DNA of 34,383 nucleotides from Gemmatimonadaceae bacterium (GTDB taxonomy: Bacteria > Gemmatimonadota > Gemmatimonadetes > Gemmatimonadales > Gemmatimonadaceae): positions 1 through 34,383 of the forward strand of contig JADGQR010000215.1 in NCBI GenBank assembly GCA_017881685.1, read 5' to 3'. Numbering within the stretch: position 1 is the stretch's first letter; each line of letters opens with the position of its first letter. The position numbers were made by a program, and so were the translations under genes. Shown here piece after piece: positions 1,739 to 3,272 of this stretch. The notes under the pieces are model-generated. The model was not told the DNA's origin and did not search any database. It saw only the letters and a program-made list of their open reading frames with translations.

Positions 1739-3128
1739 TCAATTAACTACGACCCTGTCGAGCGAGGACGGCCCGATGTTCATGCAGGCCTGTCCGACGT
1801 CTCCACCCGTCTTGTTCATATCGCCGTCATGAACCATGAACTGGAGGCGATAGTTGTGATTGGGGATGAGTCCAAGTCCAGCGATCGTCCATACGACTTC
1901 TGCCGAGTAGCCTTCATCAGGAACGCCGGCCGGGACGGGGTTTGCGCCGGGTCCGAGGTTTCTGTGGTTCTTGGCTGGATCAGCGTCCAGCGCAAATGAC
2001 CTCGTCGTAGGTGTCCTGGAAAGGTCAACGTTGAGCACCGCCGCTTTCCATGTTCCGAAAATCTTGTTCGGCCGCAGTGGCAAACCACCCTGCTGCCAGT
2101 CGCCAGCTCTCGAAGTCGGATCCGTGGTGATGTCTGTGAAGAATATCGACGGAATACCGGCCGACCGAATGGGTCAACTGCGGCTGCGGCGCCCGTCAGG
2201 AATTCCGTGCCGGTGAGAACGAACTGCGGCTGCGTCGAGCCGGGCGAACCGATCTGGCCAGCTGGGTTGCCTACCATCGGAGCTACCGCATGGTCTACAT
2301 AGAAGTCTGTCTGCCCCTTGGGCATATTGACAGACACGCGGCGGATTCCCAGAAGCAACGCATGCTCGTCGTTGTACCACATGCGAATCTCGCTGGCTGT
2401 TCTGCCGTAGGCCCGAAGAACCTCGCTCTCGTTGAACACAACGTTCGACCGCGGGAGGGCGCTATTGTCGGGATACCCGAGAACGCACTCACTCGGCGGT
2501 GGTACGGGATTGAAGGTGAATGTCACGACAACGCCATGGTGAATGTTGGCATACGCACGCGTGGGGTTGTTCAAGGTGTCACACGGAGTCGGGAACACCA
2601 GATATGTGGCCTTATCCTGTTGCAGCCTATCCATGATGCAGTCGGTGTGGCTGTACTTGGCGTATGCGGGAATCGTCGTCGCTGTGAGGTTGATTCCCGA
2701 CATGACGTCGGCCGCATTGTTGATCTCATGATCCGACGTGGCGGCGATGCGGTCCAGAACGATCTGGCACGCGCCTACGCCGACCTGATACTCCTGGCCG
2801 TCGGGTACGTTCTCGATGTCCGTGCCATCGCCGCCATCTGCGCCATCGATGGTGCCATCGAGATTGTAAATGGAACGGAATCCGGAGTTCGTGAATTTGT
2901 AGACGCCCGGGGGCTGGTCGAGTCGACGCAGACTGTAATCCGGCCTGCGTGGTCGTACGCTGTCCCGATGGTATTATCATTCGACGGCTTTAACGGGGCG
3001 GTAATGGACTTCTCAGTGGAGTCTGTGCAGGATCCGAGAACGGCGAGAATCACAGCCGCTCCCGAAAGCAGCGCCAGCCGAGCGAGTTTCACGCCTGGGC
3101 TGGTTTGGGACATTGTGGTTGAGCGCAT
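1739..3128 (-). pseudogene. Secreted lipoprotein gene broken by two frame changes
   Basis: Reading leftward from the ATG at 3128, with GGAGG at 3139-3135 six bases before it, the first frame gives a lipoprotein signal with lipobox VLGSC and continues to TAPLKPSNDNTIGT. The coherent protein then moves to a second frame somewhere within 2970-2870 (PPGVYKFTNSGFRSIYNLDG, then a Gly/Asp-rich stretch with EINNAADVMSG). It runs to about 2170 (FLTGAAAAVDPFG) and resumes in a third frame (AGIPSIFFTDITTDPTSRAG) to the stop at 1739. The C-terminus carries QFMVHDGDMNKTGGDVGQAC, a motif I associate with secreted anchor-type proteins. Rejoined, it would be about 460 residues. Because sense is kept across both shifts, the breaks are either recent mutations or sequence errors. 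The function is unknown. A riboswitch-like leader precedes it. Confidence 0.7.
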
Positions 3129-3160
3129 TGTACACCTCCGAGTGGTTCTGCGAGATTCGG

Positions 3161-3263
3161 CCTTTTCGAGACCGGTGTCGCCCCTCTTCGGTGGTCAGGC
3201 GCTTCTCGAAAGAAGCCTGACTTTGCGTGCTGGCCTCTCGGCCAGCTTGCCCTTATCGGAAGG
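3161..3263 (-). promoter_or_regulatory. Putative cyclic-di-GMP-I (GEMM-I) riboswitch
   Basis: On the minus strand the order of elements matches the GEMM-I aptamer. GGGCAA (3252-3247) is followed by a 7-bp hairpin GCTGGCC/GGCCAGC closed by a GAGA tetraloop of GNRA type (3246-3229). The hallmark ACGCAAAG follows (3228-3221), then a second hairpin starting TCAGGC and closing with GCCTGA (3220-3194), then AGAGGGGCGACACC (3185-3172). The outer ends can form P1: CCTTCCGA (3263-3256) against TCGAAAAGG (3169-3161), with CCTT:AAGG and CGA:TCG paired around a small internal loop. It lies 22 bp upstream of the Shine-Dalgarno of the disrupted lipoprotein gene, so translational control is plausible; no U-tract terminator is seen. 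Whether it binds c-di-GMP or cGAMP cannot be told by eye. Confidence 0.75.
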
Positions 3264-3272
3264 AGTTCTTTT

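Follow-up and report, generated by a model that had tools for sequence, protein, structure and literature searches.

In an uncultured Gemmatimonadaceae bacterium, a lipoprotein gene has in its 5' leader what is, by every computational test applied, very probably a genuine c-di-GMP-I (GEMM-I) riboswitch, a further member of a well-known and ordinary class. It is predicted with high confidence to be a c-di-GMP riboswitch of the receptorless (type II-like) form that controls the lipoprotein gene downstream. A preliminary description of the window, meaning the whole 34,383-nucleotide stretch analysed here, had put forward a GEMM-I candidate on the minus strand and proposed a search with the RF01051 covariance model as its check. 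The Rfam cmscan search confirmed the candidate, with a match to RF01051 (c-di-GMP-I, GEMM-I) at 3187-3261 (-) of 43.7 bits (E 1.6e-5 over the full window), above the gathering score of 35 bits, and RF01051 was the sole Rfam family above threshold in the window. Read in order, the minus strand contains GGGCAA, a 7-bp P2 with a GAGA loop, CACGCAAAG, a second hairpin and ACCGAAGAGGGGCGACACC; from 3265 (-) the sequence is CUCCUUCCGAUAAGGGCAAGCUGGCCGAGAGGCCAGCACGCAAAGUCAGGCUUCUUUCGAGAAGCGCCUGACCACCGAAGAGGGGCGACACCGG, running on to the start codon at 3128. The element lies in the 5' leader on the same strand as the gene, whose Shine-Dalgarno sequence is found at 3139-3135. The core pattern GGCA[A/C]..CGCAAAG occurs a single time in the window, at the aptamer, and the isolated 75-nt aptamer folds at -32.1 kcal/mol, 4.2 standard deviations under dinucleotide shuffles, with both P2 and P3 formed.

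The features of the leader and of the gene are collected in Table 1. The preliminary limits of 3161-3263 miss the two bases with which P1 starts and take in part of a further hairpin; the best limits of the aptamer including P1 are 3181-3265 (-). Likewise, the outer P1 pairing that had been called compensatory is real here, whereas compensation is not visible in a single sequence.

Table 1. Positions of the riboswitch, its expression signals and the regulated gene within the window.
Feature	Position	Strand	Basis
c-di-GMP-I (GEMM-I) aptamer core	3187..3261	-	RF01051 match, cmscan
Aptamer including P1: CUCCUU (3265-3260)/GAGGGG (3186-3181), inner CG (3258-3257)/CG (3190-3189)	3181..3265	-	folding, pair counts
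P2 with GC/GC closing pairs: GCUGGCC (3246-3240)/GGCCAGC (3235-3229), GAGA tetraloop 3239-3236	3225..3250	-	cmscan, folding, pair counts
P3, short hairpin GUCAGG-CUUCU-UUCG-AGAAG-cg-CCUGAC without tetraloop receptor	3194..3221	-	cmscan, folding, RNAalifold
G, equivalent of Vc2 G20, c-di-GMP selectivity base	3251	-	RF01051 position 11; position mapping our own
A, equivalent of Vc2 A47 (G in the GGC variant)	3224	-	RF01051 and RF03167 alignments
C, equivalent of Vc2 C92	3191	-	RF01051 alignment; choice of 3191 over 3190 our assignment
CUUCCGA, candidate anti-Shine-Dalgarno overlapping the P1 5' strand	3256..3262	-	constrained folding; comparative support absent
UCGGAGG, Shine-Dalgarno region of the lipoprotein gene	3135..3141	-	sequence, constrained folding
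Post-aptamer hairpin without U-tract, limits approximate; aligns with terminator-like hairpins of G012 leaders	3150..3181	-	folding, leader alignment
Regulated lipoprotein gene, lipobox LGSC; formal ORF 2775-3128, far end approximate	1740..3128	-	ORFs and alignment to intact relative

The draft genome to which the window belongs (3.37 Mb, 84% complete) contains three RF01051 elements, the two others scoring 81.2 and 71.0 bits. At least one such element was found in 42 of the 61 genomes searched, this one included, and in none of the 14 control genomes. From these searches, 62 elements were extracted, 15 of them of a short type (up to 85 nt) comprising the window's element and 14 others. Across the short type, standard pairs occupy 75% of pair cells compared with 67% in shuffles and 28-55% with partners slid, a comparison that is somewhat biased in favour of the structure, which was drawn on the window sequence. 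In the same 15 elements, 16 pairs changed on both sides, and the covariation score was 0.338 compared with 0.189 in shuffles (0/500 shuffles reaching 0.338). By helix, 89% of cells are paired in P2, 70% in P3 and 66% in P1. RNAalifold recovers P2 and P3 unaided, with double changes at 12 pairs. These alignments indicate that P2 and P3 are clearly conserved in relatives through compensatory change and P1 weakly.

In the closest leader, G015:C103, the P3 sequence is almost the same, and the lipoprotein encoded behind it is related in its N-terminal part. A model built from the 15 short elements mainly re-finds them, as it must by construction, along with long-type elements at lower score, and adds one weak new short candidate (G006:C380). 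Under a simple lipobox rule, a lipoprotein-like start follows 9 of the 15 short-type and 18 of the 47 long-type elements. One of the related loci, G012:C69 (L039), carries a pair of short-P3 riboswitches separated by about 1.3 kb; behind each lie a terminator-like hairpin and a related lipoprotein gene. Another short-P3 element (G020:C256:15686-15762, L047) precedes a gene resembling that of LspA (signal peptidase II), a lipoprotein-processing enzyme.

Three positions of the aptamer contact the ligand, namely G20, A47 and C92 in Vc2 numbering (PMC11218506), and G20 acts as a selectivity factor between cyclic dinucleotides (PMC9262584; role of G20 also PMC11218506). All three bases of the window element match, on our own mapping of positions, the c-di-GMP set (3251 G, 3224 A, 3191 C), and because this set is retained, c-di-GMP rather than cGAMP is the predicted ligand. 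The nucleotide itself is probably made in the host, since GGDEF and EAL domains are encoded in its genome (6 and 3 matches, respectively). The element shares with Vc2 of Vibrio cholerae, a member of RF01051, the order of P1, P2 and P3, the GGGCAA and CGCAAAG core, G20/A47/C92 and the place before a surface-protein gene; it differs in its short P3 without tetraloop receptor and in its moderate score. Receptorless members of the c-di-GMP-I class are referred to as type II and usually, though not always, have a GYRA loop on P2 (PMC11218506). In the window, P3 aligns to the RF01051 consensus with gaps at the receptor positions, as expected of type II, whereas the P2 loop is GAGA instead of the usual GYRA; in the short-P3 relatives this loop is mostly GCGA or GUGA. 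The GNRA loop on P2 had earlier been taken as added evidence for the element, an argument that loses its footing here: because P3 lacks a tetraloop receptor, one would not expect that loop to make its tertiary contact in the usual form.

The protein read from 3128 (-) has a lipoprotein signal at its beginning (AVLGSCTDS), which bears out the lipoprotein gene expected downstream. Its reading frame is broken twice, near 2913 and 2150. An intact relative of 458 amino acids from a genome of the same genus (G018:C187) aligns with all three resulting segments, with an identity of 44-45% in the middle one and 60% in the C-terminal part. At each break a single C seems to have been lost within or next to a run of C, which may reflect either recent pseudogene formation or a mistake in the assembly. 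Its last ~250 residues, at the C terminus, represent a family found in metagenome-assembled genomes labelled Chloroflexi, Acidobacteria, Bacteroidetes, Actinomycetota and others (L099-L108), with the conserved motifs DEHA, GDWQ.GG and HDGDQ.K.GGD.G..C. Pfam and NCBIfam returned no family for the relatives of the lipoprotein, and the PDB, searched by sequence, no solved relative. The predicted fold consists mostly of strands at medium confidence (pLDDT 63.7) and gave no significant structural match. Near the relatives of the C-terminal domain in other phyla, no aptamer scored above threshold. The product is best described, in broad terms only, as a lipid-anchored surface or periplasmic protein.

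Genes for pilus components are located nearby, with pilT ending at 255 (identified from the preliminary description and the end of the sequence rather than by family search) and pilC (T2SSF family) at 437-1630. Both are on the plus strand and convergent with the lipoprotein gene, and therefore lie outside its transcript. The larger ORFs flanking the G018, G015 and G012 relatives, read by eye, are other genes. Control of the pilus genes by the riboswitch, as the earlier link to pilT/pilC implied, was rejected on both counts, and the neighbourhood is no evidence of pilus function.

In the lowest-energy fold of the full leader, the Shine-Dalgarno region is paired with the P1 5' strand, CUUCCGA and UCGGAGG offering seven possible pairs. 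In the free ensemble, four bases of the Shine-Dalgarno sequence are mostly paired; constrained folding with P1 forced frees part of them. Because of this difference between the free and the forced fold, a translational ON switch is suggested, a polarity to which we would give about an even chance. The most likely mechanism would be that c-di-GMP stabilises the aptamer together with P1 and so releases the Shine-Dalgarno sequence from the P1 5' strand. Without c-di-GMP, the P1 5' strand would pair with the Shine-Dalgarno region and translation would be low; with c-di-GMP bound, P2, P3 and P1 would be locked together, the Shine-Dalgarno sequence freed and the lipoprotein made. It should be noted that about 7 kcal/mol separate the P1 state from the more stable free ensemble, which is much for ligand binding to make up at equilibrium, and that some of the Shine-Dalgarno sequence stays covered by a local hairpin even with P1 formed. 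When duplex energies of own and swapped anti-Shine-Dalgarno/Shine-Dalgarno partners were compared in 12 short elements, the own pairing was no better (mean rank 0.50). No intrinsic terminator was found in the window leader.

The same aptamer could instead work as an OFF switch, the c-di-GMP-bound fold hiding the Shine-Dalgarno sequence in the local CACUCGGAGGUG hairpin or stopping transcription at the post-aptamer hairpin, a reading we hold to be possible at less than even probability. Many canonical elements of the same genus carry their Shine-Dalgarno sequence (GAGGAG) directly after the aptamer, as a possible P1 3' strand, and in two related leaders (G012) the equivalent place is taken by terminator-like hairpins. 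In the window, however, the Shine-Dalgarno sequence is located ~40 nt past P1, the hairpin lacks a U-tract, and it is the free fold that hides the Shine-Dalgarno sequence through pairing with the P1 5' strand. For the long-P3 elements of the genus, with the Shine-Dalgarno sequence right behind the aptamer, we infer an OFF layout, and the two G012 leaders make transcription control possible in relatives. A receptorless aptamer whose P1 5' strand serves as anti-Shine-Dalgarno in a translational ON switch, next to other GEMM-I elements of the genus that look OFF with the switch built into P1, is a composite reading that we consider quite improbable. Two observations count against control of this gene by a c-di-GMP riboswitch: the gene is frameshifted in the present assembly, and in G018 no aptamer was detected before the intact gene. 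The locus might thus be a decaying remnant, an intact aptamer before a pseudogene and without useful effect, which appears unlikely: two apparent single-C deletions break the frame relative to the G018 gene, but assembly errors may account for them, given that they adjoin or fall in C runs; the three segments are otherwise open and similar, and the aptamer itself is intact. The G018 leader (upstream of 2882, minus strand, L035) is a single case; it aligns weakly and lacks CGCAAAG, and its post-aptamer region and Shine-Dalgarno context are recognisable.

A different ligand, either cGAMP (as in GEMM-Ib) or that of the c-di-GMP-I-GGC variant, is very unlikely. At permissive thresholds the GGC model (RF03167) scored 45.5 bits, slightly above the 43.7 of RF01051, and some related elements have A at the G20 position. 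The variant shares the short P3 with the window element, but the score is below its gathering threshold of 59 bits, and position 3224 is A and not the G that the GGC model has at the Vc2 A47 position, as read from the Rfam consensus lines; the GGC variant was rejected on these grounds. Its name presumably denotes the three contact positions. The cGAMP riboswitch of Geobacter has the scaffold in common but A at position 20, and cGAMP, entertained as a ligand in the preliminary description, was rejected for the window element on its G at 3251. That two neighbouring hairpins resemble GEMM-I by chance is highly improbable. Although the element has the lowest score of the three in its own genome, that score exceeds a curated threshold, strand and distance to the start codon are right, the homologous G015 leader shares a near-identical P3, and paired changes occur among relatives.

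Some GEMM-I elements of related genomes (L052:1006-1093, L072:1311-1400, L057:387-498 and L041:2419-2498) carry at the position of Vc2 G20 an A, which in Geobacter is associated with the sensing of cGAMP, and on this sequence feature cGAMP riboswitches are possible in other genomes of the phylum. In L052 and L072, the aptamer 3' GCCGCC could pair with a complementary GGCGGC that has a T run behind it, an arrangement that may be a terminator switch.

The part of the literature covered contained no report joining Gemmatimonadetes with a c-di-GMP riboswitch. The element described here leaves knowledge of the riboswitch class unchanged. It contributes a lipoprotein gene probably controlled by c-di-GMP from a phylum that has been little studied and where c-di-GMP riboswitches seem common, given their presence in 42 of 61 genomes searched. 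If ON polarity here and OFF polarity elsewhere in the genus were both true, a rise in c-di-GMP would exchange some surface proteins for others.
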